From Cephalotus follicularis (lineage: Eukaryota > Streptophyta > Magnoliopsida > Oxalidales > Cephalotaceae): 64,000 nucleotides of DNA. The stretch is from contig BDDD01000888.1 of the NCBI GenBank assembly GCA_001972305.1, positions 1-64,000 on the forward strand, given 5' to 3'. A model generated the notes under the pieces. The model was given only the letters and a program-made list of their open reading frames with translations, was not told the origin of the DNA and searched no databases. Below, one piece after another: positions 230-54,967 of this stretch; within the stretch, counting starts at the first letter, position 1; the number at the start of each line of letters is the position of its first letter. A program made the translations under genes and the position numbers.

Positions 230-2279
230 CATCAGGTTGGTTTCCATGTTGTTATGTCATGGGTGATTGGCTTTATATTGCTGTCTATTGAATTCGAATG
301 TTATAGGTTGCTAGAGAAGGAATTGTCCTACATTCTGCCTTCTTGCTTTCCTGTCAAATAAGTTCTGTGTTTATAGCAATATGTAGACATCTAAGAAGTG
401 TCATATAATCTGGTATTAGGAATTGACAATGGTAATTTGACAGAAAATTTAATTGAAATTAGTATCCAATGGTTTGCTCCTCTTACTCACAACTCATTAA
501 TCGCTGTCAATGTATCTAAATCGAATTTAGTATTATGGTGCTGTTTTTAATACCCTATGGAGTCCTTGTAAGTGTTGGTAGCTTCCTAGTATTGAATGAA
601 TTGAGTTTGGGCAGCAAGATTTCACCAAACTGTCATATTTTTGTTTTCTGTCTCCCAGAACAGTCGACTGCCCATATGAACAGTCGACTGTCTAGTTTGA
701 GTAGTCGACTGCATTGGGCAAACAGTCGACTGTCTTGTGTTGAGTACTCGGCTGGACCCCTGATTCAGTCGACTGCTTGCATGCCCAGGTTAAGTAGTCG
801 TCTGGCCCTGTTGTGTAGTCGACTGCCACCCCTTGATTAGTCGACTGGGTTCTTGAAACAGTCGGCTGGTTTGTCCTGTAAGCTTCTGTTTTCATCCGTT
901 TGTTCTTCCGATGATCCGGGTCTATTCTAAACATCATTATGATTCTGTTTTATGTTCAAAATGAATTTTAGACCCTTATTTGAACATTATTATGTTGTTT
1001 AGATTATTGTGCTACGTGAAGCAAATTAAATTTACCTGATATTCGTAAGTTAGTCTGTGATCGCACAAGGTATGGATTTTCGTTCCTTGATAAACTCTTA
1101 CTGATTCAGTTCTGTTTTGAGAATAAATACAGATTCTTTGTTTTGGGTTATTATTCGGTTTTATGAATATGTTCCCTTTTGGTTTATGAACTCCGTTATA
1201 TTTGGATTTTGAAAATTAAGTCACTTGATTTTTTATGAGGTAAATATTTCTGACTTTATGAATTCAGTTATGATGTGTCTACGAAATGTTATGCAATCAT
1301 CTCTTTATCGTGAAATTAAATGAGTTGATTTTTCCGATTATGAAAGCATGTGTTTATATCGTTTGAGAACGATTTATGATTATGTTTGGGAAATCTTTCT
1401 ACGTATTTTAAATTGATTTGATGAAATCAAGTTTTTGAAATGGTGAAATACTGAGCTTTTTATAACCACCTATGGGGGTACCATAGGCATGCTGTGAGCC
1501 TGGCACGGGGGCATGACACTTTCCGTAACGGTGTGATTTGTTTACAGCGTCTCTCTAGGATATCCTTGGATAGGATTTGTGATAGAGGCGTATGAATCGA
1601 TCCTAGTTATATGTTTTTGGGATATGTTTTGGGATATGGGAATTGTATGTGTAGTGTCGTATACTGCAATTCCATTTGGCAATGTGGGAATCGCGAACCC
1701 CTTGCTACTATGTGTTTCCGATATGTTATGGGTTTTGGTGCTCAGTTATGGAACCTATGTTTTGTAAAGGTATACTTTATGGTTTAAAGTTATGAACTTG
1801 TTTTATATGTTTTGCCGTGGGCATTTACAAAGTATGTTTTACATTATTTTATTGCTTAAGATTTCTGCTTTAAAGTACTTTTGAAATCTTCTTGCTTTAA
1901 AATATCGTTTACTGTTTTATATTCTATATCCGTACTGAGGTTCGCTCATCCGCGTTTTTTTTTTCATGCGGCAGGTTATCAGGAGCAAAGGGGCAATGTG
2001 TGATGAGAGTGACTCCCACATGTTTGAGGATCATCTAGGAGCTGATCCCTTTATGTTTATGTGGTCGTAGTGGGGCCCGTTTAATAAACAATATGTTAAT
2101 TTTATTTTATGACTTTTGGGATTATGAATAAGTTCCAGTTATGATCGGTTTCAGTATGTTTTTTATTATGCTTTAAACCATCACGTTTTTAATAAAGATG
2201 AACGTTTTTAATCTGATATGTTATGTTAAGTTTCCGTTATATGCACCTGTGGCGATTTCCACAGATCGGTGGTGTTACA
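230..2279 (+). repeat. Element A 5' LTR, first 706 bases missing
   Basis: It aligns almost base for base with 7783-9654, then continues through the part missing from the right copy, ending GGTGTTACA at 2279 directly before the primer-binding site. A full LTR would be about 2.75 kb. It contains a phased CAGTCGACTG array (661-868) and an AT-rich downstream half. Short reading frames inside it are chance. Confidence 0.9.
661..868 (+). promoter_or_regulatory. Phased CAGTCGACTG array, A left LTR
   Basis: Ten copies of the 10-bp palindrome CAGTCGACTG or one- to two-base variants start at 661, 681, 702, 723, 745, 766, 795, 816, 838 and 859. Intervals are 20, 21, 21, 22, 21, 29, 21, 22 and 21 bases. 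The 10-12-base spacers show no resemblance to each other, so this is not an ordinary tandem repeat. Function is unknown; spacing near two helical turns suggests protein binding on one face of DNA. Confidence 0.85.
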
Positions 2280-2280
2280 G

Positions 2281-2297
2281 TTTATGGTATCAAAGAA
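2281..2297 (+). other. Element A primer-binding site
   Basis: TGGTATCA at 2285-2292, followed by an imperfect AAGAATAG, lies five bases inside the LTR end. It resembles the TGGTATCAGAGC complement of initiator Met-tRNA used by most plant LTR elements, but its 3' half is mutated, so priming would be weakened. Confidence 0.75.
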
Positions 2298-2448
2298 TAG
2301 TCTTTGTTCCTTAGAAGACCTAACTAGGTTTGACCTGTGAGCTTGGGTAGACTTGGGTTAGGACTGTTATGTTTCGGCATTTCTGATATGGTTTCTGTTT
2401 TGATTTTATGTTTCGGTTTGATATCACGTGTTTGGGTTTCCTTCGTAG

Positions 2449-3540
2449 ATGGTACGCACAAGAAACACTCCTCAGAGAACTACACCAGCTGGGGCTCGAA
2501 ATGAAGTTGGAAACGAGCCTTCTGTGGAAGAGTTGGTTTGTCAGGCAGTTGCTCAGGAAGTGAATCGTGTGATGCAACAACAGAATCGGGAACAAGTTGT
2601 TGAAAAGAATGCTCCAGAAGATGTTCAGAGGGATATGGAAACTGGGGATAGGCATGGCACACCTACTCATATTTGGCTTGAGCGGTTTCAGAAATAGAGG
2701 CCGCAGTCTTTCGGTTCAGCTTCGACACCTGTGGAAGCTGAACACTGGGTAGCACACATGGAGAAGATCTTTAGTGTACTGAGGTGTGATGATCAGCAGA
2801 AGGTAAGGTTGGCGGCTTACAAACTCGAAGGGGATGCTCAGAAGTGGTGGAATACTCTGAATTTGGCTAAGGGTGAAGGTTATGCTGATGCTCTGTCATG
2901 GTCTGAGTTCCAGGAAGTCTTCTATCAGCAGTATTTTCCCACTGCTGATAAGGAGGCCTATGCTAGAGAATTTGTGAACACCAGGCAGAGGGATGGAGAA
3001 ACAGTTTCGGAGTTCTTGGCCCGTTTCACTAGATTGGTTGGGTTTTCTGGATCCGCGGCGGGGTCAGCATCAGAGAAAGCTGAAAAGTTCTAGTGGAAGC
3101 TGCATTACCAGTTTCGGGGAAAGCTGATAAACTCCAAGTTTACAGATGTAGCTGAAGTTGCAAATGCTGCGAAAAACATTGAGTTGGAGAGATTGGATTT
3201 TCAAGCAGCACGCTAGGAGGGGGATAAGAAGCGGTATAGGAATGAATAAGATTCTGGACTGCAGGGCAAGGGTCAAGGCAGTTCATGGAACAGGGGTAGA
3301 GGAGGTAAACAACATAAGAGGAATCACAAGCAGAATAAATATGGTAATCAACAGCGTCAGCAAGGAAATGATCAGAAGAATGCACAGGGAGCTGATGGGG
3401 GTAACGCCGACGTTCAGATTGCTAGATGTGATGCTTGTGGTAAGTATCATCTGGTCGGTACCTGTTATAAAGTCAGTGGGGCTTGTTTTGTATGTGGACA
3501 GATGGGACACTTCGCGAAGGATTGTCAGGATCCTCGTGCT
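2449..3540 (+). pseudogene. gag: Element A gag (capsid and nucleocapsid), stops
   Basis: Gag would coat the element RNA in cytoplasmic particles. The start is the ATG at 2449, 170 bases after the LTR and opening MVRTRNTPQ. A Retrotrans_gag-type core follows (2731-3093, with AAYKLEGDAQKWW and QQYFPTADKEAYAREF), then a basic Gln/Asn-rich stretch and paired zinc knuckles: an altered CDACGKYHLVGTC (3427 on) and a canonical CX2CX4HX4C, CFVCGQMGHFAKDC (3484-3525). Stops interrupt the frame at 2695 (TAG), 3091 (TAG), 3214 (TAG) and 3247 (TAA), yet the frame never shifts. D carries a close relative of this gag. The copy cannot make full-length Gag. Confidence 0.9.
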
Positions 3541-3999: not shown

Positions 4000-4011
4000 G
4001 GTTCACGGCCT

Positions 4012-5500
4012 ATGAAAGATGTCAAGATCATATCAGTTATGAAAGCTCAGAAGTTAGTAGCTATGGGCGTCGAAGGGTTTCTAGCTGTTGTGAAGGATGT
4101 CTCAAGGGTCGAGCCTCGTATTGAAGATTATCCTATCGTTAGAGAGTTTTCTGATGTGTTTCCAGAGGAGTTACCGGGTTTGCCACCGCAACGGGAAATG
4201 GAGTTTACCATTGAGCTCATTCCTGGGGCGGCACCTATATCTAAAGCACCGTATAGGATGGCACCGCTTAAGTTGCAAGAGCTGAAGGAGCAGTTGCAAG
4301 AGTTGCTAGATCGGGGTTTTATCCGGCCCAGTGTTTCGCCGTGGGGAGCTCCGGTTTTGTTTGTGAAGAAGAAAGATGGATCTATGAGACTGTGTATTGA
4401 CTATAGAGAACTAAATCGGATCGCTGTTCGTAATAAATACCCTTTTCCTAGGATTGATGACCTATTTGATCAACTCCAAGGTGCACGGTATTTTTCTAAG
4501 ATCGATTTGAGGTCTGGATATCATCAGTTGCGGATAAAAGATGAAGATGTGCCTAAGACCGCTTTCCGCACATGGTATGGGCATTATGAATTTCTGGTGA
4601 TGCCGTTTGGGCTTACGAATGCACCGGCAGTTTTCATGGACCTAATGAATCGGGTTTTTCATGAGTTTTTGGATCGATTTGTGATTGTGTTCATCGACGA
4701 TATCCTTGTGTATTCGAAATCGATGGAAGAACATGAAGATCAACTTCATATAGTGCTTGGTATTCTGAGGAAGAATCAGCTATACGCGAAGTTTTCGAAA
4801 TGTGAGTTCTGGTTGGAATTGGTGGCGTTTTTAGGCCATGTGGTTACAGGGGAAGGGATTACTGTGGATTCTGCTAAGGTTGAAGCTATTACTAAATGGC
4901 CGAGACCTACTGCAGTATCGGAGGTTAGGAGCTTTTTGGGGTTAGCTGGTTACTATAGGCGGTTCGTGGAAGGCTTCTCTTCTATAGCCTTGCCACTGAC
5001 TCAGCTTATGAGGAAGGGAGCGAAGTTTGTGTGGAATGATGAACGGGAAGCAAGCTTCGAGAAACTGAAGAACGGTCTTGTGTCTGCACCGATTCTCCGC
5101 TTACCATCTCGATCGGGAGGATACCAGATTTATAGTGATGCTTGTAAAAAGGGTTTGGGTTGTGTTCTGATACAGCATGGTCATGTGATAGCATATGCTT
5201 CGAGACAGTTGAAGCCTTACAAGTTGAATTACCCTACACATGATCTCGAGTTGGCGGCAGTTGTGTTTGCATTGAAGATTTGGAGGCACTACTTGTATGG
5301 AGAAACTTGTGACGTCTTTACCGATCATAAGAGTCTCAAGTACATCTTCACGCAAAAGGAGTTGAATATGCGTCAGAGACGTTGGTTAGAGCTTCTGAAG
5401 GATTACGATCTGAAAATTCAGTACCACCATTGTAAAGCAAACATGGTAGCTGATGCTCTGAGTAGGAAGAGTTCTGGGAGTGTGGCAGCTTTGGTTACTC
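4012..5500 (+). pseudogene. pol: Element A reverse transcriptase and RNase H
   Basis: RT copies element RNA to DNA and RNase H removes the RNA strand. The RT carries the gypsy signatures [51 protein letters not shown] and the catalytic box FIDDILVYS (Asp codons at 4696 and 4699). RNase H follows from about 5100 with [11 protein letters not shown] (Asp codon 5137), [16 protein letters not shown] and FTDHKSLKY. This is the best preserved part of A: 4012-6219 is open for 736 codons. It is marked as a pseudogene because the polyprotein is cut upstream and downstream. One visible oddity is Trp in [10 protein letters not shown], where E has Arg. Confidence 0.93.
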
Positions 5501-7023
5501 AGTCACATTTGATAGCAGATATGGAGCGATTGGATTTGAATCTCTTTGTTCGGGGTTCAGATGGATATATGGCTGGCATCTGTATGGAGCCTACCCTTAT
5601 ATCTCAAATTAAGGCAGCTCAGAGTGATGACGGTGAACTTTGGGCCTTGGTTGAGAATGTTGAAAAGGGTAAACAGTCAGAGTTCCGTGTGGATGAGCAT
5701 GGAGTGATCTGGTTGGGTAGTCGGTTGTGTGTTCCGACAGACACTTCTATCAGAGATGCTATCTTGTCTGAAGCGCATAGCTCTCCATTCTCTATACATC
5801 TGGGTTCTACAAAAATGTACAGAGACTTAAAGGAGAATTTTTGTTGGAGTGGAATGAAAAGGGATGTAGCAGAATTTGTCGGGAAGTGTTTGGTCTATCA
5901 ACAGGTTAAGATCGAACAGCAGCGAGCTAGTGGTTTGTTACAGCCCTTAGAAGTTCCGGTATGGAAATGGGAGAGTATTGCGATGGATTTTGTTACAGGT
6001 TTGCCAAGAACTTACAGGAGAAATGATGTTATTTGGGTTGTTGTGGATCGGTTGACCAAATCAGCTCACTTTTTGGCAATCCGAGAGGACTTTTCTGTGG
6101 ACCGCTTGGCGGAGGTTTTCCAGCGGGAGATTGTGAGACTTCATGGGACTCCTGTATCTATTGTTTCGGATAGGGATCCCCATTTCACTTCACGGTTTTT
6201 GAAGGGATTTCAGAAAGCTTAGGGTACGAGGCTAAATTTTAGTACAGCTTTCCATCCACAGATAGATGGACAGACCGAGAGGACCATTCAGACCTTAGAA
6301 GATATGTTGAGGTCTTGTGCTTTGGAATGGACTGGGAGCTGGGACGAGTATTTGAGCCTAGTAGAGTTTGCCTACAATAACAGTTGGCAAGCTAGTATTC
6401 GTATGGCTCCGTTTGAAGCTCTTTATGGGAGGAAATGTCGAGCTCCGACATGTTGGAATGAAGTCGGAGAAAGAGTTATCGAGGGGCCAGAGCTAGTACG
6501 AGTCACTACTGAGAAAGTGGCTATATCAAGGGAGAGGTTGAAGACAGCTCAATCTCGACAAAAAAGTTATACAGACAAACATCGAAAGGATTTAGAGTTC
6601 AAAGTGGGTGAACATGTGTTCTTAAAACTTTCACCTTGGAAAGGCGTCCGACGATTTGGGTTGAAGGGAAAGTTGAGTCTTCGGTTTATAGGACCATTTG
6701 AGATTCTGGAGAGGGTTGGCGCAGTTGCGTATCGATTAGCTTTGCCTCCACAGTTATCTCATGTTCATGATGTGTTCCGTGTGTCCATATTGAGGGGTTA
6801 TCAGTATCATCCCCTACACGTGGTCCACTATCCTCTGGACAACATTCGGGAGGATCTATCTTATGATGAGGAGGCGGAGGGTATTCTGGATCGACAGGAA
6901 CGGGTTATGCGTAGCAAGACCATTTTGTTTGTGAAGGTTTTATGGAGGAACCATCCCGAACGTGAGGCTACTTGGGAGATGGAGGAGCACATTCGGGAAC
7001 GATACCCTCGTTTGTTCGTTTAA
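5501..7023 (+). pseudogene. pol: Element A integrase with C-terminal chromodomain
   Basis: Integrase inserts the cDNA; the chromodomain is thought to guide it to particular chromatin. The N-terminal zinc domain has His codon 5776 ([10 protein letters not shown]) and Cys codon 5887, but the second Cys of CLVCQQV is Tyr at 5896. The DDE core is visible: Asp 5986 (AMDFVTGLP), Asp 6169 ([11 protein letters not shown]) and Glu 6277 (GQTERT). A TAG at 6220 splits the core between its second Asp and its Glu without a frame change. The tail contains GVRRFGLKGKLSLRFIGPFE, LSHVHDVFRVSILR and the chromodomain-like EATWEMEEHIRERYPRLF, ending at TAA 7021. Confidence 0.92.
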
Positions 7024-7480: not shown

Positions 7481-8212
7481 TTTTTGCTATCCTTTCCCCG
7501 TTTGGTCTCTTTTGCTATATATGTATGTCAAAGTTATTGTGTCAGCCGTCTCTCTCTCTTTGTTGTGGTTGCTGCCGAACCTGCCATTGGAGAATCATTG
7601 TGTTTTTGGTGTTCTTGCTTCATCAATCAGGTTAGTTTCTTCATGGTTTCAATGTAGGAATCGTTTTTGCAATGTTTGGCATTGTTGGCAGGCTTTGAAC
7701 TCTTGATATCTTCCTCTTGTTTTCCTTTTTGATCAGCCACTGTGTCCTCCGAATTGGTGTTTCTGCAACTGTTTTTGACATCCATCAGGTTGGTTTCCAT
7801 GTTGTTATGTCGTGGTGATTGGCTTTATATTGCTGTATATTGAATTCGAATGTTATAGGTTGCTAGAGAAGGAATTGTCCTACATTCTGCCTTCTTGCTT
7901 TACTGTCAATTAAGTTCTGTGTTTATAGCAATCTGTAGACACCTAGGAAGTGTCATATAATCTGGTATTAGGAATTGACAATGGTAATTTGACAGAAAAT
8001 TTAATTGAAATTAGCTTCCAATGGTTTGCTCCTCTTACTCACAACTCATTAATCGCTGTGAATGTACCTAAATCGAATTCAGTATTATGATGCTGTTTTT
8101 AATACCCTATGGAGCCCTTGTAAGTGTTGGTAGCTTCCTGGTATTGAATGAATTGAGTTTGGGCAGCAAGATTTCACCAAACTGTCATATTTCTGTTTTC
8201 TGTCGCCCAGAA

Positions 8213-8422
8213 CAGTCGACTGCCCATATGAACAGTCGACTGTCTAGTTTGAGTAGTCGAATGCATTGTGCAAACAGTCGACTGTCTTGTGTTGAGTAGT
8301 CGGTTGGACCCCTGATTCAGTCGACTGCTTGCATGTCCAGGTTGAGTAGTCGACTGGCCCTGTTGTGTAGTCGACTGCCACCCCCCTTGATTAGTCGACT
8401 GAGTTCTTGAAACAGTCGGCTG
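8213..8422 (+). promoter_or_regulatory. Phased CAGTCGACTG array, A right LTR
   Basis: This is the second copy of the array at 661-868. Its first starts are 8213, 8233, 8254 and 8275, so intervals of 20-22 are kept; the last start is 8413. Several cores have drifted (TAGTCGAATG at 8254, a CGGTTG variant near 8297), and a small indel near 8385 alters one spacer. Confidence 0.85.
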
Positions 8423-10180
8423 GTTTGTCCTGTAAGCTTCTGTTTTCATCCGTTTGTTCTTCCGATGATCCGGGTCTATTGTAAACATCATTATGATTCT
8501 GTTTTATGCTCAAAATGAATTTTAGACCCTTATTTGAACATTGTTATGTTGTTTAGATTATTGTGCTACGTGAAGAAAATTAAATTTACCGGATATTCGT
8601 AAGTTAGTCTGTGATCGCACAAGGTACGGATTTTCGTTCCTTGATAAACTCTTACTGATTCAGTTCTGCTTTGAGAATAAATACAGATTCTTTGTTTTGG
8701 GTTATTATTCGGTTTTATGAATATGTTTCCTTTTTGTTTATGAACTCCGTTATATTTGGATTTTGAAAATAAAGTCACTTGATATTTTATGAGGTAAATA
8801 TTTCTGACTTTATGAATTCAGTTATGATGTGTTTACGAAATGTTATGCAATCATCTCTTTATTGTGAAAGTAAATGAGTTGATTTTTCCGATTATGAAAG
8901 CATGTGTTTATATCGTTTGAGAACGATTTATGATTATGTTTGGGAAATCTTTCTACGTATTTTAAATTGATTTGATGAAATCAAGTTTTTGAAATGGTGA
9001 AATACTGAGCTTTTTATAACCACCTATGGGGGTACCATAGGCATGCTGTGAGCCTGGCACGGGGGCATGACACTTACCGTAACGGTGTGATTTGTTTGCG
9101 GCGTCTCTCTGGGATATCCTTGGATAGGATTTGTGATAGAGGCGTATGGATCGATCCTAGTTATATGTTTTTGGGATATATTTTGGGATATGGGAATTGT
9201 ATGTGTAGTGCCGTATACTGCAATTCCATTTGGCAATGTGGGTGTCGCGAACCCCTTGTTACTATGTGTTTCCGATATGTTGTGGGTTTTGGTGCTCAGT
9301 TATGGAACCTATGTTTTGGAAAGGTATACTTTATGGTTTCAAGTTATGAACTTGTTTTATATGTTTTCCCGTGGGCATTTACAAAGTATGTTTTACATTA
9401 TTTTATTGCTTAAGATTTCTGCTTTAAAGTACTTTTGAAATCTTCTTGCTTTAAAATATCGTTTACTGTTTTATATTCTATATATGTACTGAGGTTTGCT
9501 CAGCCGCGTTTTTGTTTCCATGTGGCAGGTTATCAGGAGCAAAGGGGCAATGTGTGATGAGAGTGACTCACATATGTCTGAGGATCATCTAGGAGCTGAT
9601 GCCTTTATGTTTATGTGGTCGTAGTGGGGCCCGTTTAATAAACAATATGTTAATTGATTATGCGGAAAATAACCACATCTTTTTAAAATTAAAAACAAGA
9701 AAGATAATAGCAATCAAAAACACACAAAGCAATAAAATAATTTGCAAAATAAAGAGCAAGGGATGGAGGATGCAAACTATTATATAGTGGTCCAGCAAAC
9801 CGTGCCTACGTCCACTCTCCCAAGCCGCACTTGAGGTTCCATTAGAATGTAATCCCCTGATCACAAACAACGATTCTGGATTTTTACAAGTTTAATCCCA
9901 ACTTGAATTTTTTCGAGCTAAATTCTAACTCGGACTTTCAAAGCTAAATCCTAACTTATAGAAAGGTACTAAGGACCTTCTTATTACAACAAATGTATGA
10001 ATTGAGTATTTGTGTAATGTATTTGTAACCTTTAACAAGGCTGATATATCAAATATAAAGCTCAAAAATCTCAGACAAAGAACTTTGCGAAAATAGCTTT
10101 GAAAACAACTCTTGTATTGCTTGGATATTGCTTGTTTGATTTCTTGCGTTGGCTTGATTTTTTCTTCATGGCTTGAGCCT

Positions 10181-10190
10181 CTATTTATAG
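10181..10190 (-). promoter_or_regulatory. TATA box of B LTR
   Basis: CTATAAATAG on the minus strand, repeated at 17249-17258 in the other LTR. The phased GTTGAC array lies 130-570 bases upstream of it, in the U3 region. Confidence 0.7.
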
Positions 10191-10319
10191 TCTTCAGAGA
10201 CATATAGCCGTTGCTAGACTCCAGGAATTGTTAGAGAGCCGTTTGAATCAAGAATTGAAAGGATCACACCATTTCAGCACCTTCATTCTTTGCAGATCTC
10301 ATGTCTGGCTGTCATTGGC

Positions 10320-10757
10320 ATTGACGTGTATGAATGGCGTTGACGCCTATCCTCTTATGCGTTGACTCTTGTAGCTTTCTGTGTTGATAGTCGAAGCTCT
10401 TATTCAGTTTCTGTTCTATTTACGTTGATGCGCATCCATGGCGTTGACGTGTAAAGTGAAGATGTTGACGCCTCAATGTATTTGCGTGAACGTCTAAACC
10501 TACTGTCCGAAATGTGCACCATTTGCGTTGATGTCGTGATATGGAGTTGAAGTCGATATACAAGATGTTGACTCCACTTGTTTTCTGCATTGATGGTCAA
10601 GTCGTTAACGTTGACGTCTTCTTCAAGGCGTTGACGTAAATCATAATTTCCCAGAATGTTGATGTAAATAGAGAATGACGTTGACGAGAATCATCTTTGC
10701 AAACCCAGAACATGAATCCATTCCCAGCACGTTGACGCGTAGAACATAGTCATTGAC
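10320..10757 (-). promoter_or_regulatory. Phased GTTGAC array in B LTR (U3)
   Basis: About 18 copies of GTTGAC or close variants (ATTGAC, GTTGAT), often inside GCGTTGACGT, start at 10320, 10339, 10361, 10383, 10424, 10443, 10464, 10486, 10527, 10546, 10567, 10589, 10610, 10630, 10658, 10680, 10731 and 10752. Most intervals are 19-22 or about twice that (41). Spacers are unrelated. All lie upstream of the LTR's TATA box. TTGAC is the core of WRKY W-boxes and TGACG of TGA-type bZIP sites; binding by either is inference. Confidence 0.85.
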
Positions 10758-10891
10758 GCCAAAAGTACTGATATTAAATTTTAGCTTTCTTGCAACACAA
10801 GTTAACTTAAATAATGATTCCTTCACATCAAGCAAACACATTAGGTGTTTTGTTATCATCAAAACAATGATTGTAACAAATAATGTCAACA

Positions 10892-10906
10892 ATCCTCCCC
10901 TTTTTT
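10892..10906 (-). other. Element B polypurine tract
   Basis: AAAAAAGGGGAGGAT on the minus strand sits directly before the 3' LTR start (TGTTGACATT). A second copy, with the last 66 bases of the LTR, stands at about 12551-12635 because of the tandem duplication. Confidence 0.8.
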
Positions 10907-11471
10907 ATGATGACAAAACATACACAATAAAAGTATAAAAATGCATAAACAACAGATGCATGTCAACAATCTTCAACATATATAGAATATACCAATTTAG
11001 AAGTAAAATTATCCCATTGGAACTATATCCATAATCCTCACTTGTAAGCATATACCTTCTTCCTTATAAGCATTCATAAGTCTACTACCATTCATAAAAG
11101 TTTATAAAAAGCTACCATTTATAAAAGTTTATAAAAAGCTCATATATCTTCAACATATGTAGAACTATACTACTCGCCCTTTTTGGAAATCATCAAAAAA
11201 GGTTGAGTAACTAAAAACACCCCTCGAAAAGATGCATATTATCAAGAAAAACATGAGTCATTAATCCATTAAAAACATCATTAATAGAAACATCAAAAAA
11301 TGATTTCTCCCCCTGAAAGTTTCAATCCAGGTTCCAAAACACATATAGCATACATTGATTATAAAAATATCATCACAAACATCATTGTATCAACAACATA
11401 CCACAATACAAACCAAAAACATTAATAACAGAAAATGTCACAAAGTTTTTGAAAAACAACAAAAAAAAAAT

Positions 11472-12530
11472 TCATTTCGCTTGAGTTCCTTCTTCTTCTT
11501 TACCAGTGTTTTCTTCTTCTTCACCGGATGAGGAGATGTCACTAGCTTCATTGACTCCCTTTGCTACGAGCTTCTTCTCTAGCCTTCTTTGTCTGCGTCT
11601 TTGATCATCGAAGAGATCCAAACACTCTCCTCGCAAGTTGTCCATTTTGATGTCTATTTTGTTCATTTTGGTATTGAGTTTCTTTATCTCATCTAAAATA
11701 TACTCCAAAGATAGAGAATAGCTGCTACTGCTGGCTTGATGTTGTGGGGCATGGGTAGTTCTAGGCCTCTGAGGTTCACCTTGCTCCTCAGCATTTTCTT
11801 CCTCAATCCTTCTTTTCCTTCCACCTTCTTTAGGCAGCAACACATTGCCTTTTCCAGCTACAAATTCTCTCTTCCAACCCATTCTCTTCAAAGAGGAAGC
11901 ATTATACACATCTCCCACATCAATCCTTGAAGGTACTTCATTTCCGGGCAAAATACCAAAATGGGTAATAATCTTAGTGATTACCATTCCATATGGTAAT
12001 GCACCATCTACCTTAGAAGAGGCCCTAAGCATATTCTTCCAGATCAAATGGGGTAAATTCAGAGGTTTTCCAGTTACGGCATCCGACATAATGTATAAAT
12101 CCTGCTAATTAATCTTCTTATGCCCACCGGAGGTAGGTAAAACATGAGTGGCGACAATGTGGTGGAACACTCTATGCTCAGCACCTAGAAAATTGGTAGG
12201 CTTCGCCATGCCTCCTAACACATTTTCATTTGGGTAGAAAACCCTTAAATAGTCTTCCAAAACCAATTCTGGATCTTTCGGCCATTTCTTGATCTGAAAA
12301 AATCTAGACCCATCAGCAGGTACTCGTAGAATCTCACTTTACACTTTATCATCAAACTTAATCACATTTTTACTAACTTTAGTCTTAATCTCCAATTTAT
12401 CACAGTCATCACTGGTGTTGAACATGTTGCTATAGAACTCTTTAACAAAGTCAACATAATAAGGAACATTGATTGTGAAATAGTCTTTCCATTCTAGAGC
12501 AGAAAACCATTGTTCTAAAGAGAAATTATC
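11472..12530 (-). pseudogene. Truncated copy 1 of the plant-transposon-protein ORF
   Basis: The reading starts within the equivalent of residue 41 of copy 2, because the duplication breakpoint removed the N-terminus and promoter. The N-terminal part (12530-12110) has further decay. The same TAG as in copy 2 stands right after GGHKKIN (12104-12106). Downstream, 11472-12089 is open for 205 codons: a conserved helical part (NLPHLIWKNML, LPYGMVITKIITHFG), a basic linker (KEGGRKRRIEEE), a probable coiled coil (LEYILDEIKKLNTKMNKIDI) and a Ser/Glu-rich acidic tail. It has no visible promoter of its own. Confidence 0.75.
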
Positions 12531-13201
12531 ACCAGTTGTAAAGAGAAATTATCACATCAAGCAAACACATTAGGTGATTTGTTATCATCAAAACAATGAT
12601 TGTAACATATAATGTCAATAATCTCCCCCTTTTTTATAATGACAAAACATACACAATAAAAGTATAAAAATCCATAAAACAACATATGCATGTCAACAAT
12701 CTTCAACATATGTAGAATATACCAATTTAGAAGTAAAATTATCCCAGAAGAACTATATACATAATCCACACTTGTAAGCATATATCTTCTTCCTTATAAG
12801 CATTCATAAGTCTACTACCATTTATAAAAGTTTATAAAAAGCTCATATATCATCAACATATGTAGAACTATACTAATCCCGCTTTTTGGAAATCATCAAA
12901 AAGGTTGAGTAACTAAAAACTCCCCTTGAAAAGATGCATATTATAAAGAAAAACATGATTCATTAATCCATTAAAAACATCATCAATAGATTAAAAACAT
13001 CATTAACAGAAACATCAAAACAAGATTTCTCCCCCTGAAAGTTTCAATTCAGGTTCAAAAACACATATAGCATACATTAATTATAAAAATATCATCACAA
13101 ACATCATTGTATCAACAACATAAACATAATACAAGCCAAAAACATTAATAACAGAAAATGTCAAAAAATTTTAAAAAAAAAAAAAAAAAAAAACATCATT
13201 G

Positions 13202-14368: not shown

Positions 14369-14466
14369 GATTGAAGGTGATCTTGGTGAAAACTTGAGTT
14401 TTTAGGTTAAAAAAGCGATTTTGCAGAGGGAAAAATGAGAGAGGAAAAACAGGGATGCAAATAGGT

Positions 14467-14735
14467 GTTGACGAAAAGGCCCAATTCTATATATATCTGG
14501 TGTTTAAGCATTGATGTCTAACATGCACGTTGACGTTGATCGTGTACATACTCTGTACAGGGGATAATAACGTTAACGTCATTGTTGACGTGAAAGCATA
14601 AACGTTAACGCTAATATGTAGCGTCGATACTAAAAGCATAGAATGAGAGAACATTTTCATTAATGCGTAAAAAACAAAAGGTCGTATAAACGTTAACGTG
14701 TATATTAAAGTTAACGTTAATATATAGCGTTGATG
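14467..14735 (-). promoter_or_regulatory. Promoter of the B extra ORF with GTTAAC/GTTGAC array
   Basis: A minus-strand TATA box, GATATATATAGAAT (14484-14497), lies about 120 bases before the ATG at 14368. A pyrimidine-rich leader lies between them. Upstream of the TATA box are cores GTTGAC, GTTAAC, GTCGAT or ATTGAT at 14510, 14529, 14572, 14584, 14604, 14623, 14692, 14710 and 14729, many 18-20 bases apart and flanked by AACG..CG. One more is at 14467. The same motif type fills the U3 region of B's LTR. Confidence 0.65.
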
Positions 14736-23268: not shown

Positions 23269-23348
23269 TGTAATGGCCCAAATTTCCATTAAAGATGTTA
23301 ATTATGGAAAGATTGCTATTGTGTAAATTGACAAATAGTTCAAGGGAC

Positions 23349-39951: not shown

Positions 39952-40052
39952 CAGTCGACTGCCTTGGCTTGGCAGTCGGCTGTTTCTGCCGACACTCCCA
40001 CCAGCCGACTGCTTCCTCACAGGAGCTGGCTGCCACGCCTGGCAGTCGGCTG
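39952..40052 (-). promoter_or_regulatory. Second phased array in G LTR (upstream of leader)
   Basis: Copies start at 39952, 39973, 40002, 40023 and 40043: intervals 21, 29, 21, 20. Copy 2 of the LTR has them at 43370, 43391, 43420, 43441, 43470 and 43491. On the minus strand this lies upstream of the CT-rich leader. Confidence 0.8.
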
Positions 40053-40054: not shown

Positions 40055-42325
40055 TGTAGCGCCCCCGACCCGAGTCCGCTTTAAGCTCAAAGCGAGCTCC
40101 GAAGATCGGTGCGTTACGTGTGTGTAACCTTTAACCGTTAAATCGTTTAATCATTTAACGATCCATTTCATATCATATAATCTTGGCTTAGATTTAAAAC
40201 CTAACATTATTACTCAATAACTTCACAGGATCGCATATGCTTACATCTTTGAAACATCAATTTCAAATATCATATTCTCATTATCATGGTCATTCCTAAT
40301 ACCCTTGCATTTCGTATATCATTTACATGTAGCCTTACACAGCGGAAAAACGTAATCTTATCACCTCATAAAAATAATCATATACTCGCCTTTTTCCATT
40401 AACATCTCATAAACTCAAGTATGTTCAATAACTCTTGATATCATTATCTTACATAAAAACATCATAATCTATAACATTTGTTTCTATACTATAACATCTA
40501 TACACCGTCTATCATAAAACATTACACAGCGGAAAACATACACATATGACATAAAAGATAACTTCATAGCATATCATACTTTATTTCCTTACTCTTCCTT
40601 CGCGAACTTCCACTAAAGCTCGCAACTTCACGTTCAACGTTTCCTGGAAGATTAATTTGAAAACAAGACATTGAAAGGAGTGAGCTTTTAAGAGCCCAGT
40701 AAGAATTATAGTTATAAAACGTTATCGAAATTCGTTACTTTTGATAATTTATATCAAAACATTTCAACATCATACTTTTCAAAATATCTTTGGAAATCAT
40801 TTTCTAGTTTTATAAAACCAGAACATTTCTAAAATCTACCTTTTCTGGTATATATAACCAGCATATTTGTAAACAATCAAAACGTTTTCCGTTTATACAT
40901 TCTTGTGGCAGATATCTCAGCCAAACTTGAAAACATACTTTCATTGAAAACCATTGTCTGGTCATAACCAGAACCTTTCATAAAACTTGTGGTTTAAAAA
41001 CCCTTAATGAACCCATTTACACCGCTTCACCGGGGCATTGTGCACTCCCCGAATACTATCCTTACATCACATGCATGTCCGTGAGCACGCTCGACTCCAT
41101 TAACTTTGAGCAATCTCGCTCCATTCCCCTTGGATCACAAACCAAGGGCGGTTCATTCATCATTTACTTTGAGTGATCAGTTCAAAGCAATCATAAAATC
41201 ATTTCATAACATTTCTTTCACAATTCATAAACATTTCTCTTCACTTGAGTAATTAACTCAAATGCATTCATAAAACATTTCATAAAAACATTTATAAAAT
41301 AGCTTTGTACAACACTTCTAAAACTGGTTTCTCATATAGAAACATTAATTTCATTTCATTTTACAATCCATAAAGCATTTTCATTACTTTGAGTAATTTA
41401 ACTCAAAAACCTTTAGAAAACAGTTTTGCATAACTTCACTAACAAAGATATTTCGTATAGAAATAATAACTTTCATAGAAAACTTAAAACATAAAAGTTA
41501 AAGTAGACATCTCAATGAATCTATCGAGATAAAAATCATAAAATTCCATTGAGAAACGAAGCTGCAATGAATTTTTAAAGTTGCGGTTTCCTTTTGAAAA
41601 CAGTGCCTGAGCAGTGGAAGAAAACATGGATTTTCATCAAGAATTCCATAGAATTTCGAGATGCATAAAACATAACAGTTAAAGTAGACATCTTGAGGTT
41701 TAAAAAACATTAAACCATAAAAAATTTCGTCAAGAAATCAGCAAGATATGAATTAAAGTATCTGCTGCATAATTTTGAAGGAAAACAGAGGAAAACTTTG
41801 ATGAAATGGGTATAGAATCTCCTTACCTCACTTGATCTCCTTCTCTTCTTCTTTCCCAAGCATCCTCCTCTGTAATCTCAGCAGAAAAGCAGCCCTTCAT
41901 CAGCTGAGAAAGCCCACATATATAAAGAAAAAGGAAACTTGGAGGCTAAGCTTGGGTGGTGTCATCCATGACCTCACCCATGTGAGCTTGCCTCCATGTG
42001 ACTAAAATTCAAACAATTCAGCTGATGCCACCTGCCTTTATCTTGCAAAATATCATAATTCATCCATTCCTTGCTTGACACGTGCCCTACAAACCATTTA
42101 AATCCTCCAAAATGGGATAAAAACTCATAATTCTGCACCTGACACAGGGCAAAGCGTCGACTCTTTACCTCTAAGCGTCGACCGTCACAGCCTTTTCCAG
42201 CGTTTTTCACCTCTATCCCGACTAAAGCGCTGACGCTTTCCTACAAAGCGTCGACGCTTTAAGTTGTCTTCCAAGTCAACTGACACATTAATCTTCAACG
42301 CGTCGACGTCTAAAATTTGGATACA
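40055..42325 (-). repeat. Element H: E-family LTR, inverted, inside G
   Basis: Starts TGTAGCGCCCCCGACCCGAG and contains the inverted counterpart of E's LTR landmarks: the CACCGGGGC..TGCACTCCCC block (41020-41060), CCTTGGATC (41140) and GTCGAC cores at 42156, 42177, 42250 and 42302. Its far end, AAATTTGGATACA, looks like the E LTR start (TGTAATGGCCCAAATTT inverted) after a deletion of about 300 bases. Flanks CTGTT and ACATG do not match. Confidence 0.75.
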
Positions 42326-43645
42326 ACATGTTCGCTACACTGCTTAGCAAAGCACTAAAGGCATAAAACTCCGTCACATCACTGTCCAACACGGCCATGC
42401 CCGGCGATATCAAAAACTCAGCATCAATCTGCAATAGTAGGGGGTTAGCCTTTGTACTCACTCGACCAAAGTCATAAAAACAACATAAGATCAATAAAAC
42501 CAAAGTATGAAAGCAGCATGATGCAGTACATACTATATCTCGATGCATATATATAAATATAAATATGCATATGCCAAAACACGATGTCACGATATCACAG
42601 TATCACAATGTCACAATGTCACAATATCAAGATAGTCGGCTGCCCGCACTCGACAGTCGGCTGGCCCTCAGGACAGTCGGCTGTCCACACCCCCACAGTC
42701 GGCTGCTGACCTACAGCAGTCGACTAAACAACCTCTGCAGACATTTTTCTGGAAACGAACACGGGTAGTCGACTGGCCTCCCAAGAACAGTCGGCTGGAC
42801 CCATAGGCAGTCGACCGCCCAAGGTGGGCAGTCGTCTGGGTTCTGCAGCAGGTGTAAAAACCAGCTGCTAAAACAGCCACAATCACACACCCAACACAAC
42901 CCAAAACGATATATTTATGCACATACGCGTTCCAAGCTCACAATATGAGATAAACATGCATTTTATTCCATCAAAAACATTAACAATTGAAATTATGTTG
43001 CAAAAACGACTTCCCCCTACCTTAGAACTCCAAGTTAGGAGCTGCAATCCACCTCTTTATGTCCAAATCCGAGGTCTTTGCACCCCCTACACGTCCAGCA
43101 ACCCTCAACAGGTTCGAACTCCCACTGTCAAGCCTCCAAGCTTCCGGTTTCCTCACAAACCCTTTGTTCCACACAAAACACTACACACACTTTCACTCTC
43201 AGACTCACAAACGCCCTTGGAAAACGCAGAGAATGATGGAGAAAGAGGAGAGAAAGGCTGTGTTTTATGGAGAAAGACCCGGCCCCTCCTCTGCCATTTG
43301 CCATAAAAACCAAAACACCCCACTTTATGTCACTTAAGGCAGACATCACATGGGCTATCTGGCACATGGCAGTCGACTGCCTTGGCTTGGCAGTCGGTTG
43401 TTTCTGCCGACACTCCCACCAGCCGGCTGCTTCCTCACAGCAGCTGGCTGCCACGCCTCAGCAAGGGTCCAGTCGGCTACCTCCCCGTGGCAGTCGGCTG
43501 CCCCTGCACAAAAACACATAACAACACACTTCCTTGCAACACTTCAACACACAAAAGAGGAAAAACACGATTCTCATTAACACAAGGTGTAAAATTACAT
43601 TGGGAAAAGCAATAGTACACATCAATGAAAATCCTGGGCGTTACA
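42326..43645 (-). repeat. Element G LTR copy 2
   Basis: Resumes at the equivalent of 38183 of copy 1, lacks a further block (equivalent of about 38480-39215), and continues to the intact terminus GGGCGTTACA. Remaining sequence is very close to copy 1. Confidence 0.82.
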
Positions 43646-44703: not shown

Positions 44704-47424
44704 TGTAACGCCTCGTAGCAGTTTTGGGACTTTTTCTATGGAGAATAAATTTTTTTGGATGGTCTTTGGACTTAATTGAGTAAGAGAAAAAGGTTAAGAG
44801 ACTAAAGTGCAAAGCTTGTTGGGGAAGCTTCCATATCCCAAGACGTTTGACAGCTCTTGTTGGGAGTTGTGGATATATATCTGGTGATGTGGTCTATCCT
44901 TTCTTCTAGTTTCTGCATATTAGAAAGTTTTAGAGAGAGTTTTAGAGAGAGAGCTTTAGTTCTTCTTCTTCTTCTTCTTCTTCTTCTTCTTCGTTGTCAT
45001 TGACGAGTGGGAGGAGAACAACAGTTCGAAGCTTTCCAGGTTTAGCGAAGAAGTAGCCAGGAGCAGTAGCAGACGAGCAGAAAGAGGAGAAGTTCTCGTC
45101 AGAGAAAGGCAGTAAGAACGCAGCCAAGAACTGTGAGTGGGACATCCTTTCTATGTTTCTAGTTATTTGTTGATGTTCTTGTTGACTCATTCAGTTTCTA
45201 ATCCCTAGTACTGTGAGGGCTTTCTAATGGGAATTTGTTTCCCTAGCACTTTTGTATGTTTCTTTTGACAGAAGAGAGAGAAAGAGAGTTTCCTGAGCAC
45301 TAGAGCTCAAGTTCTTCAAGTGAACTAGTCACTTTCCAGTAAGGTAACGCGTACGTGCTCAAACCAACTCCTCAGCCAACTATTGTCTATGATGGGAATT
45401 CAAGCGAGTCTGCCCCTAGGCCCTACCTGGATCTCCTGTACACTATTGTCTATGATGGTGTTTAGGGTATGAGTGTAGCCGAGCACTATGTACATAGCTC
45501 TAACCTCCTCGGTCTTCTATTGTCTATGATAGGAAGCCAGGCGAGACTGTCCCCATGTCCTACCTGGATCTCCTTTACGCTATTGTCTATGATTGTGTTT
45601 AGGGCTTTAGTACAGCAGAGCTAAGTTGGTAAAAGTAGAGATTAGAGCCTTTCAGTAAGTTTTCTAGAGGAGGACTTTGTCCTCGGCAGTCATGCCATTG
45701 GCATCAATGCCTTGGTTCAGAGGAAAGCTCTGTCCTTGGTAGTCATGTCACCAACCCAGTTAAGTAAGAAAAGCAAAGAATAGCAAGAACAGAAGGGAAA
45801 TGGGTTCTCGACAGTTACTGCCAAGCAGGCTTCGGCCTAGATCAGCTCAGCGCCAGTATAAGTTGGCAAGTATATATTATGTAACTAGCAGGCTTCGGCC
45901 TAGACCAGCATAGCAAAGAAAGCCAGTTCCTAGCTTAGTTGTTCTCCTCGGGTGTTTAGCCGGGAAGGACCCCAGTTCTTTTACAGATACCTTTCTTTTA
46001 ATGAGTTGTATCTTAAGTTCTTTTCAGCTTTTATGAACGTTCTAGAACCAGCTAAGCAGAGATATAGTAAGCTTTTCTTTCATGTACCTTGAGCGTTTCT
46101 TTATTGTATGCCATGATATATGGTTTGTTACAGTCTTTTCCCCAGTTGGGACAGTTTTTCATGTTCATGGTAAGCTTTCTTTCAGAACATTCATTTATAA
46201 GAATGTATCAGAGGATGTTTCATTCTCATTCACTTAGTCAGTTGGACTAATCCCCTCACAGACTGTTTTACAAGACCTGAAGCCGGAGGACACCCTCCAG
46301 CTCAGCAGTAGCAAGCTTAGCAAGGTAGTTTTTGAGCTCAACACTGTGGAGCACCAGCTCAGGCATTAGCTTTCCATAGCATGGGGCATACCTTGGGTTT
46401 TGTTACCCGTTTGGTGTAGTAGAGTAGCTTTTCTTTGTAAGCTTGTTGTTCTTTCGCCTGCTAGGGGATGCATTGTTTGTATACCAGAGGACACATATGT
46501 AATAGTTTTATGCTTTTAAGTTATGTTATGGATGTTTTAAGTTCACAGATGTGTTCATCATGTGTTTTTACGAAGTTTTCATGTTTTGAGTTTCATGATC
46601 CCAGGCCTGGCGGAGGACCTAGAGAGTCCCCAGGCTAGTTCAGTGGAGAAAAGCTTAGCGGGGGAGTATAGTAAGGCTAAAGTGTTTGCCTTAGGCTTTT
46701 GGAGTATGACCCCGGGAATTAGTCCTTGGGCATAGGCCAGGGAAGGCTGGTTAGAAGAAGGCCAAGGTCGGGCATAAGTATTGATGTAATGTTTAGGTTA
46801 AGCTGTGCGTTTTGATCTTGTTGTTGTTGAGTTTAGTAGGGTTGTACGTCGGGAACAACATGTGTATGCGTGGTCGCCAGGGGAGTTAAGTGACCACGTG
46901 TGGCGTGCGTGGGTTTTTCCCAGGGCATTAGTAGATGCACAGTGTTTGAAGCCTATCCTAAGGACGTTTAGCCAAGGAAGGAGGAAGACCCGAGGACAAG
47001 GAGTGTCCCTGGGCATGTTGGTTTAGTAGGCTCGTGAATGGCACATGTGTGCCCTCCACAGGGCCTGCTTTGCGCCTTATGTTAAGTCCATGTGAGGAGC
47101 ACGTGGGGCTTAAGTAATACGGAGCGTTTTGGAGTTTAATTTATGTGAAGCTTTCGGCTTTAGTGAGACGGCGCATTTGGACATTTTGTTTAAGTTGTGC
47201 GCGGGGCATGAGCAGGAGAGGAGTTAGCTCCTCTGCCCCGGCTGCCCTGTGGCTGCGTGCCCAGCCCAGCCCAGGCTTTCTCCTCGAGATTTTGCGTGAT
47301 TGTTTCCCTTGGATTTCTAAGACAACTCCTCAGGCAGTTCCAATTTTAGAGGGTTGGTAGCAAGTGTAGTGCCTTCCCCGGTCAGTGAACGTGTCCCATA
47401 GAGTTAGCGGGAGCGGTCTTGACA
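44704..47424 (+). repeat. Element C 3' LTR
   Basis: Intact 2,721-base LTR from TGTAACGCC to CGGTCTTGACA. It includes a TTC microsatellite (44956-44993), donor-like GTGAGT (45133-45138), four loose repeats of ACTATTGTCTATGATGG (45380-45600) and CAGGCTTCGGCCTAGA twice (45827 and 45889). It serves as the reference for the broken 5' LTR. Confidence 0.93.
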
Positions 47425-47852
47425 TACTGTCCAAAATGTGCACCATTTGCGTTGACGTCTTGATATGGATTTGAATTCAATATACAAGATGTTGGCTCCA
47501 CTTTTTTTCTGCGTTGATGTCTTCGTCAAGGCGTTGACGTTGATGTCTTGATATGGTTAAGTCATTGACGTTGATGTCTTCGTCAAGGCGTTGACGTAAA
47601 TCATAATTTCCCAGAACGTTGACACGGATATAGAATGAAGTTGATGAGAATCATCGTTTCAAACTCAGAACGTGTATCCATTCCCAGCACGTTGACACGT
47701 AGAACATAGTCGTTGATGCCAAAAGTACTGATATGAAAGTTTTAGCGTTCTTGCAACACAAGTTAACTTAAATAATGATTCCTTCACATCAAGCAAACAC
47801 ATTAGGTGTTTTGTTATCATCAAAAGAAGGATTGTAACATATAATGTCAACA
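47425..47852 (-). repeat. Element B 5' LTR, part 2
   Basis: 47425-47429 (TACTG) is the second copy of C's target duplication. The rest continues the B LTR from where 17573 left off and ends ATGTCAACA at 47852. A short local repeat of GTTGATGTCTTCGTCAAGGCG (47515-47590) is absent from the other LTR. Confidence 0.9.
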
Positions 47853-49399: not shown

Positions 49400-49925
49400 T
49401 GTGCCCATATGATATAATATATGGAATACTGACTCATCTATACTATCTGGAATACTAACACACCTATCCTATCTGGGATGCTGATATAACTCTACAATCT
49501 AGGATGCTAACACAACTATGGTATCTGGATGCTGACACAACTGTACTATCTGGAATACAAACACAACTGTGATATCTGAATGCTGACACAACTGTGATAT
49601 GTGGAATACAAACACAACTATGATATCTGGGATACTGGCACAACTGTGCTATCAGGATGCTGACACAACTGTGCTATCTGGAATACAAACACAACTATGC
49701 TATCTGGGATACCGGCACAACTGTGCTATCTGGATGCTGACACATGTGTGCTATCTGGAATACAAACAAAATTATGCTATCTGGAATACTGACACAACTG
49801 TGCTATCTGGATGCTGACACAACTGTGCTATCTGGAATACAAACACAACTATGCTATCTGGAATACTGGCACAATTGTGTTATTTGGATGCTGACACAAC
49901 TATGCTATATGGAATAGTGGATGAT
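49400..49925. repeat. 25-27-bp tandem array in I
   Basis: About 18-20 copies of two alternating units: GCTATCTGGAATACAAACACAACTAT and GCTATCTGGATGCTGACACAACTGT. They share a GCTATCTGGA core and ACACAACT tail, giving a higher-order period of about 52. The open frame across it is a by-product. Confidence 0.85.
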
Positions 49926-50099: not shown

Positions 50100-50350
50100 G
50101 AGTGCCTAAGGATAAATCTGGTGCACGAACTGGTGCACAATATCTGAATCTGGTGCACAATATCCAGTACACAAATTCTGGTACACCATCACTGGTGCAC
50201 AAAATCTGATACACCATCACTGGTGCACAAAATATGGTACACCATCACTGGTGCACAAAATCTGGTACACCATAATTGGTGCACAAAATCTGGTACACCA
50301 TCACTGGCGCTCAATATCTTGTACACCATAATTGGTGCACAATATCTGGA
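50100..50350. repeat. 28-bp tandem array in I
   Basis: About nine copies of TGGTGCACAAAATCTGGTAC followed by ACCATCAC or ACCATAAT. The GGTGCACA core can pair with itself. The flanking sequence is not repeated. Confidence 0.85.
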
Positions 50351-53300: not shown

Positions 53301-53889
53301 CTATAAAGAATCCATCCGTCTCAGCCTGTCTCATTTAATACAATTCATATACAAGCAAATCCATATACAATTGCCTGATAAAATCTGTTATAGAAAACCT
53401 GTCCTTATCAGCTTACCTCGTTGCAATCCATCACTTGTGCCTGAGCCTGACCCATTCTGCACACAGGGGAAATGGGTCAGTGACATAATGTCGTGTAGGT
53501 ATACTATGATATGCATGCAACAGTATAATGGTGTATGTGTGCAACAGTATATCAATGTATGTCATGTAGTGCATCAGCATAATGGTGATATGCGTGCAAC
53601 AATATAATATATATATGTATGGTATGTCATGTGCACAAATGACAATTGCGGACGATGTCAATATACCAACTGTCCCTAAGCAGTGGTATACTGGGCTGGT
53701 CCTAATCACATAAAAGGCCATAGGCCTGCAGACAATCCATATAACAATCAATATAAATCTTAGGGATAACCAGTCCATAGGTCTGAGTACTACTCTGCCC
53801 CTCCGGCCCGAGATAGTATTACCACCGACTACCTACCCTTTTGAGGTCGTAGCCGAGTGGGGAAGAGATAACGCTGATCACATCATGGC

Positions 53890-54035
53890 TAAGCCGTAAA
53901 AACGGTCAGAGCCTGTAAATATAGTGGTAAAGCCGTAAAAAATGGTCAGAATCCGTAGTATGGTGGTAAAGCCGTAAAAATGGTCAGAATCCGTAGTATT
54001 GTGGTAAAGCTGTAAAAACGGTCAGAACCCATAGG
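53890..54035. repeat. 38-bp tandem repeat in J
   Basis: Four copies of GTGGTAAAGCCGTAAAAATG followed by GTCAGAATCCGTAGTAT, with small changes. GCCGTAAAAACGGTC can fold on itself. A pair of longer repeats follows at 54370-54525. Confidence 0.8.
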
Positions 54036-54732
54036 CGCCAAGAACCTCCAATGATGATGTGATCGAACACCCATAATCCTCGCGATGGAAACGTAGGTTA
54101 TGGATGTGTTATCTCATAGGTCTCAAACAATAATATATATCATAGTCGTACTTTGTAATACTCGTAACCCATAACATATATTTGTTTAAAGGATAGGGAC
54201 CATTTCATAAAGGATCTCATAGGATCCACATCCATCAAATCATATAAAGATTGTTTCGTAATCATAAGCCATTTTTCATATCCAATGGCCATTTCGTGTT
54301 CATAATCCATTTTGTAATCATATTTTTTTCATATATCATTTGGTTGGTCCCTATCGAAGTTATAATGAATGGAAAGGGAGTCCAAATGGGAGTATCCGCG
54401 CCCAGATGTCCCAATGGAAGTACCTGACCATTTTGAAATCCATAAAACAATGGAAAGGAAGTCCAAATAAGATATCCGCGTCTCGATATCCCAATGGAAC
54501 TACCTGACCATTCTGAAAACCATTTAGAAACCATTTGCGTAAAACTCTTTTATTGAGTACTTTCCTTAAAACTTCACTTGAACATCGATTTAGAAATCAA
54601 AAGTGATACATAAGGATTTCCATAGGATACAAATCCTTAGGGAGGCTTTCTATGGAATTCGGTTGAAGATAAAACCATTTTGGATGGAAAACCGTGTAAA
54701 ACAGTGTGTTTGGGCGGAATAGGGCACTAAGC

Positions 54733-54967
54733 GTCGATGCTTAGCCCCAGGCATCAATAGTTTTAAAAAGCACAAGTATAAAGTGTCAACAGTTTGTTTT
54801 AAAGCATAAGGCACTGACTGTTTGGTTTAACTCATAAAAGCGTCGACTGTAAGTTTAACACATAAAAGCATCGACGGTTTTAGAAAGCATGAGTATAAAA
54901 CATCGACTACTCAGTTTAAGATATGAAAGCGTCGACGAGTTTAGTTTTGAAAGCATAAAGTGTCGAC
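54733..54967 (-). promoter_or_regulatory. Phased GTCGAC-core array in J
   Basis: Cores start at 54733, 54753, 54785, 54813, 54842, 54870, 54902, 54931 and 54962: GTCGAT, ATCAAT, GTCAAC, ACTGAC, GTCGAC, ATCGAC, ATCGAC, GTCGAC, GTCGAC. After the first pair the intervals are 28-32. Many read AAAGCGTCGAC or AAAGCATCGACGGTTT. Confidence 0.75.

Follow-up and report, generated by a model that had tools for sequence, protein, structure and literature searches.

Why do the long terminal repeats (LTRs) of both gypsy and copia retrotransposons in one plant carry clusters of the same short word at regular intervals? The question was raised by a 64,000-nucleotide stretch of the Cephalotus follicularis genome (assembly GCA_001972305.1, contig BDDD01000888.1, positions 1-64,000 of the forward strand), hereafter the window, in which LTRs or LTR-like repeats labeled A, B, E, F, and G and a putative LTR labeled J contain arrays of a GTYGAC core (Y being C or T). 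The feature is real and is found on the scale of the genome. Our best reading, to which we assign a probability of roughly 0.6, is that the arrays are enhancer (cis-regulatory) modules of the U3 region of the LTR, read by a sequence-specific protein that binds double-stranded DNA, most likely one or more host transcription factors.

Sites were scored against fixed consensus words, allowing 3 mismatches at most, or 6 in the case of the long, 16-base word. Gypsy element A has 10 sites of the (C/T)AGTCGACTG type at 662-868 (array A5, plus strand), spaced 20-22 bases and once 29, and 10 sites in the same register at 8214-8422 (A3, plus strand). Copia-type element B has 18 sites that match GCGTTGACG with at most 3 mismatches at 10318-10758 in its 3' LTR (B3, minus strand; shuffled mean 4.0) and 8 scored sites at 17386-17574 in its 5' LTR (B5, minus strand), where a nested insertion breaks off the array at 17574; shared B sequence points to 47449-47718 (Bc, minus strand; 12 sites) as its likely continuation past the nested block. 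Gypsy element F has 7 scored sites of the AAAGCGTCGACGCTTT type (up to 6/16 mismatches) at 23545-23767 (F5, plus strand) and 8 at 33745-33967 (F3, plus strand), and the homologous array E (42151-42312, minus strand) has 5 of the same type, spaced 21 and 52 bases apart. Array G5 (39196-39421, probably minus strand) consists of 10 CAGTCGGCTG/CAGTCGACTG sites and G3 (42633-42838, minus strand) of 9 in the same register, with TATATATA on the minus strand at 42555. Array J (54728-54972, plus strand) has 8 scored sites with alignable spacers and lies in a putative LTR of provisional orientation. Near its end, the G repeat has more CAGTCGGCTG/CAGCCGACTG sites in a looser cluster, at 39946-40052 and 43370-43500.

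Shuffled array regions had means of 0.25-4.0 sites. The window as a whole contained 93 copies of GTCGAC, GTTGAC, and GTCAAC compared to 35.0 ± 5.5 in 300 block-wise dinucleotide shuffles, and GTCGAC itself occurred 43 times (ATCGAT 11, CTCGAG 7, and TTCGAA 10). Ten core pairs were 20-22 bases apart, compared to a mean of 0.06 and a maximum of 1 in the shuffles. When one array per family was used (A5, G3, B3, F3, E, and J, leaving out the second copies A3, G5, B5, Bc, and F5), 35 of 52 adjacent spacings were 19-22 bases; random placement gave a mean of 7.4 and a maximum of 16 in 5000 trials. Array E alone was not significant (2 of 4 spacings; P = 0.07), and array J had none of its 7 spacings in that range, having spacings of 28-32 and 52 bases instead. 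An earlier note on this DNA had described these arrays, a dominant interval of 20-22 bases, and an interval of 28-32 in J, and had proposed shuffling as a check; all of this held, and dinucleotide shuffles did not reproduce the 20-22-base peak.

The feature is larger than that note described. The source genome (1,577,397,061 bases in 9746 contigs) was searched for triplets of cores with gaps of 8-16 between them, overlapping triplets of one array being counted separately. There were 44,692 GTCGAC triplets compared to 170 for the reversed pattern, and 2328 and 2361 GTTGAC triplets compared to 37 and 38. The GTCGAC triplets listed spanned 46-50 bases by eye, although 34-50 was allowed. An independent 200-kb sample (one 10-kb stretch from each of 20 contigs) also had GTCGAC as its most over-represented palindromic hexamer (91 compared to 16.3 expected; ATCGAT 71 compared to 41.4), with at least one copy in 16 of the 20 stretches and 18 of 20 pairs no more than 35 bases apart at 20-22 bases. 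Clusters of at least 4 sites of a wider set (GTCGAC, GTTGAC, GTCAAC, GTCGGC, and GCCGAC) were present in 10 of the 20 stretches. These 10 stretches, four loci of contig C1 (three of which are one place), and the six window arrays fell into 12 groups without a mutual 150-base match at E 1e-15, a number that a laxer threshold could reduce by merging groups and in which G was possibly grouped with E and F through their adjacency; a location in an LTR was established for only part of them. Outside the plant, 17 loci in prokaryote genomes (L001-L017, of the AGTCGACTG type) fitted the three-site class I pattern, but they seem to be ordinary tandem repeats because their spacers looked alike by eye in the one stretch printed for each. 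Viral contigs yielded nothing for class I or class II pairs, and one viral stretch fitted a pattern in a search for gypsy reverse transcriptase, with no relative confirmed.

The families carrying the arrays had been called unrelated, which is true in part. The LTR piece E is homologous to the LTR of element F (69-83% identity), and the pol regions of A and F, both gypsy, match at 67%. Apart from that pol match, A, B, and the E/F group had no mutual match of at least 100 bases at E 1e-10. Arrays A and G had weak mutual matches (e.g., 68% over 121 bases, E 2e-8), which may be explained by shared cores. J, among the LTR families proposed, had no second copy in the window that would mark it as an LTR.

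Core and spacer positions did not diverge equally. Between subfamilies, cores differed by 11-13% and spacers by 35-51%, in columns that are not independent. A5 and locus L038 differed at 12/90 core and 45/116 spacer positions (P = 4e-5), A3 and L038 at 12/90 and 43/116, and A5 and L029 at 12/90 and 58/114 (P = 1e-8). Likewise, F5 and E differed at 7/64 core and 17/46 spacer positions (P = 0.002) and F3 and E at 8/64 and 16/46, in a test of four aligned sites that left out three F5 sites, four F3 sites, and the E site at 42312. That E site differs by eye from F5 at 5/16 positions and from F3 at 3/16, and is less conserved than the four used. Among six copia LTR arrays (B3, L042, L043, L045, L046, and L047, leaving out the near-duplicates L044 and L048), 73 of 125 core columns were invariant compared to 94 of 328 spacer columns (P = 9e-9), and the summed pairwise differences were 319/1885 for cores and 1853/5101 for spacers. 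Substitutions after insertion were counted between the paired LTRs of A, B, F, and G, and there cores and spacers did not differ (26/364, or 7.1%, compared to 28/447, or 6.3%; P = 0.67), with 263/5039 in the rest of the LTR. Changes at CpG after insertion numbered 16/51 in cores and 58/143 elsewhere. Idle repeats would be expected to lose their CpG-holding cores no more slowly than their spacers. Judged from these alignments, the pattern is the one expected if purifying selection acts while an element is active and ceases at insertion.

Element B carries its word in two places. Sites within 1 mismatch of its core, CGTTGACG (with CGTTAACG, CGTCGACG, and similar variants), numbered 14 in the 1237-base LTR and 7 in the 275 bases upstream of an accessory open reading frame (ORF; 13832-14401, minus strand), and the remaining 5550 interior bases had none. 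The second array lies at 14466-14735 (minus strand), with six sites upstream of TATATATA at 14495 (minus strand) and one (14466) beyond it. Ten other copies of B, hand-picked from 150 listed, all had a second array before the accessory ORF, with 4-9 sites per copy within 450 bases and a total of 71 compared to 1.1 expected. A TATA-like word was present at -101 to -121 in 8 of the 10, a count that has no chance control for TATA words, and the site near -125, where present, was CGTCGACG, CGTCAACG, or CGTTGACG. A transcriptional role is favored by this recurrence of one word at both putative promoters of the element.

A motif placed both ahead of the accessory gene and within the LTR would also suit a regulator encoded by the element itself, for which the accessory protein is the candidate in B. 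We consider this explanation unlikely. The accessory ORF matches PF20167 (Transposase_32, putative plant transposon protein), a family for which we know of no DNA binding, and its predicted structure was unusable (predicted local distance difference test, pLDDT, 39). All 81 homologues among the matches listed were from Cephalotus follicularis. No accessory gene was noticed in A or F, in which none was specifically searched for, and private regulators would not be expected to share a GTYGAC core across gypsy and copia elements. A partial PF20167 match is described in an accessory ORF of sunflower Athila (excerpts of PMC11728184). The model for such a regulator is the VANC family of anti-silencing proteins, which bind arrays of short motifs in VANDAL transposons (excerpts of PMC5735166). 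In those excerpts, the VANDAL motifs resemble the present arrays in being dense, short, tandem-duplicated, family-specific, and located in non-coding regions; however, VANDALs are DNA transposons whose binder is encoded by the element, whereas the core described here is common to several families.

A second alternative, raised in the earlier note, is that the palindromes pair in the transcript or in a single strand (dimerization, hairpins, or small-RNA production) and that this pairing was selected. Sense strands folded better than shuffles in A (z = -5.8), F, E, and J (each -2.6; the orientation of J is provisional), as did antisense strands in A (-4.4), B (-3.3), F (-3.9), E (-4.0), G (-5.4), and J (-3.1), and palindrome-rich LTR regions of maize Sireviruses are reported as small-RNA hotspots (excerpts of PMC10760457 and PMC5311732). 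However, arrays of palindromes fold well regardless of function, and sense folding was lacking in B (z = +0.5) and weak in G (-1.3), the sense strands of which carry GTCAAC and GCCGAC, words that are not fully self-pairing; the B cores are conserved nonetheless. Since sense-strand RNA structure is not common to all arrays, a protein reading double-stranded DNA fits better, and the RNA explanation is weakened to the point that we regard it as quite unlikely.

The regular spacing is at least partly inherited from tandem duplication, as indicated by alignable spacers, superunits in B, and 28-base units in J. Spacers aligned better than shuffled spacers in A (P = 0.001), in G (P = 0.006, with one long spacer dropped), and in B (0 of 1000 shuffles, with three dropped), so the earlier statement that they share no sequence was wrong in degree. 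The spacings of B3 (19, 22, 22, 41; 19, 21, 22, 41; 19, 21, 22) make up three superunits of about 103 bases, and superunits are plainly alignable in the relative L046. Units were alignable in L046 and J, where they are 28 bases long, and weakly so in A, G, and B. Tandem Repeats Finder called part of A3 (21 bases, 62% matches), G5 (20), the B piece at 47.5 kb (26), and J (28). The best-fit period was 9.9 bases in J and 10.3-10.45 in the other five families (A, G, B, F, and E), which is compatible with the suggested spacing of two helical turns that would put sites on one face of the DNA; it is no proof of phasing, because duplication of units of about 21 bases yields the same spacing. That the arrays are ordinary tandem repeats, created by slippage from short units, decaying without function and showing only apparent core conservation, would account for the superunits in B and L046, the Tandem Repeats Finder calls, and the residual spacer similarity, but it is very unlikely given that core differences between subfamilies are 2-4 times fewer than spacer differences even though cores hold CpG, that the core-spacer contrast is absent after insertion, and that the core recurs in 12 array groups lacking a 150-base match.

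In the enhancer reading, each GTYGAC-type palindrome would be a putative binding site for a sequence-specific protein that reads the DNA in double-stranded form; this protein is most likely a transcription factor of the host, or one of a few related factors. The clusters of sites would drive transcription of the element and, in B, that of the accessory gene as well through a second promoter. Sites would multiply by tandem duplication of units of about 21 bases and of larger blocks; spacers would drift while cores would be retained for as long as the lineage is active, and sites would decay neutrally once inserted. Protein binding, activation, and the use of one factor by copia and gypsy elements are what we infer from this pattern. 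The suggestion in the earlier note that the arrays are binding platforms is partly supported, as the reading that best fits cores held while spacers diverge and a word found at two putative promoters of B. GTCAACG is presumably W-box-like (WRKY-like), and GCCGAC presumably resembles the core of a dehydration-responsive element (DRE; DREB-like).

Several observations weigh against this reading. The LTR of A yielded no strict TATA box, and that of F has its first one some 460 bases past the array. Duplication alone accounts for the regular spacing, the definition of core columns on one member per comparison favors the cores somewhat, and the antisense strands of all six arrays fold better than shuffles. 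The window also contains three families of LTRs or LTR-like repeats that do without arrays (C, J35, and K, the last with an LTR related to that of A), with 0 or 1 site in each of five stretches; arrays are therefore not universal in LTRs. More than one factor may also be involved, because the flanks form at least two classes: CAGTCGACTG (59 sites in 7 arrays, main variant GTCGGC) and AAAGCGTCGACGCTTT (52 sites in 9 arrays, variants including GTCAAC, GTTGAC, and ATCGAC), as tabulated from sites preselected at up to 3 mismatches with B not included. Counting in favor of the enhancer reading, some arrays mix GTCGAC with GTTGAC, GTCAAC, or GTCGGC within the same flanks. It is rather doubtful, though worth stating, that many gypsy and copia families converged on one host factor or factor family with a GTYGAC core, which would make a single regulator responsible for much of the mobilome. 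A bolder form of this idea would have the factor read T and 5-methylcytosine alike, so that GTTGAC would stand for a methylated GTCGAC and methylation would not silence the enhancer.

Tandem cis-activating boxes are present in the U3 of Tnt1-type LTRs, in few copies, in one family, and with a different sequence. The closest precedent is the repeated motif (RM) box of Sireviruses, which belong to Ty1/copia (excerpts of PMC2829016, here and for the Sirevirus comparisons that follow). RM boxes are palindromes that differ by element and number 8-32; most of them precede the TATA box, lying in the upper LTR half, and others are found upstream of the envelope (ENV) gene. The boxes were suggested to be sites for stress factors, and the motif was called Sirevirus-specific. 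Element B is alike in that a motif cluster precedes a TATA box in its LTR (14 LTR sites, with TATAAATA at 10189 on the minus strand) and a second cluster lies upstream of a third gene, the PF20167 ORF as putative ENV counterpart, in the window and in all 10 other copies. The Sirevirus core is CGG-CCG in 12 of 13 motifs, whereas the core here is GTYGAC (CGTTGACG type in B), although the Vitis motif CGGTCGACCG contains GTCGAC. Gypsy LTRs carry the arrays here, in contrast to a motif specific to Sireviruses, and the regular 21-base spacing and the selection contrast reported here are absent from the Sirevirus passages of that paper. Del LTRs have plastic 5' CpG islands (excerpts of PMC4029996), a likeness to the CpG-rich, fast-evolving 5' part of LTRs here, the gypsy lineage probably being the same; however, the islands were reported absent from the eudicot Del groups studied, and that text does not contain the terms "palindrom", "tandem repeat", or "repeated motif". 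The earlier note had known of no description of such arrays across copia and gypsy together. The array architecture proves to be already known from copia Sireviruses, whereas no account joining copia and gypsy arrays by one core was found in the open-licence literature searched; the one core across superfamilies and the contrast before and after insertion look new.

Element A has LTR copies at 225-2101 and 7776-9655 (plus strand, 96.3% match) and a pol of two ORFs at 4000-7020 (plus strand) with RVT_1, RNase H, an integrase zinc domain (H2C2), SH3_Tf2-1, and Chromo by Pfam; gag and protease domains were also found. Its Chromo match (PF00385), placed after the integrase, scored 25.4 bits against a cut-off of 25.1, and with the gypsy pol domains this makes A a chromovirus-type gypsy element, presumably of the Tekay/Del lineage, two names that we take to be equivalent. 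A relative of the A LTR at 19033-20705 (66-71% downstream) has a single core-like site and no array, so it seems that related LTRs can gain or lose arrays. Element F has LTR copies at 23267-25561 and 33475-35758 (plus strand, 93% match) and reverse transcriptase, protease, integrase, and SH3_Tf2-1 domains; its frame at 33004-33435 matched SH3_Tf2-1 and had no Chromo match at E 0.001, an absence that is not firm as the frame is broken. Nearly identical sequences of about 20 bases (GGCCTAGATCA...AGCGCCA) stand before element F (23242-23266) and before the second J35 LTR (45832-45856). G is an LTR-like repeat whose minus orientation is suggested by an LTR-like start near 43646.

The 3' LTR of element B is placed at 9656-10892 (minus strand), with its ends inferred. 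Its copia-type assignment is based on gag remains on the minus strand (15478-16536; PF14223 in 16186-16536, with 15478-16071 lacking a Pfam match), a polypurine-like tract just past the LTR start at 10892, and TATAAATA at 10189. The window copy has no open frame of at least 110 amino acids from gag to the accessory ORF; pol was not searched for in other copies. Two similar polypurine tracts lie near 10893 and 12621, the second inside an internal tandem duplication of 1.73 kb (10823-12556 and 12552-14279, 90.6%) that has copied 70 bases of the LTR start along with part of the accessory ORF. The 5' LTR is interrupted at 17574 and apparently continues at 47416, with about 30 kb of nested elements between; both halves adjoin boundaries of other repeats. 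Tandem arrays without the GTYGAC core were seen at 49413-49916 (26/51/77 bases), 50147-50349 (14/28), and 53891-54034 (38). Rfam and tRNA scans of the window gave no match.

Taken together, these data indicate that families of both major retrotransposon classes apparently carry the same word, spaced about 21 bases apart near their promoters, where by the sequence evidence it would serve as a docking site for a DNA-binding protein. The contrast of constraint before insertion and neutrality after it offers a simple way, usable in other plants, to test LTR motifs for function from sequence. If families that cannot be aligned share one core across both superfamilies, the transcription of a large part of the transposons in this 1.6-Gb genome could be under a single host regulator. 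A general question then becomes testable: whether transposon families tend to converge on common host factors.

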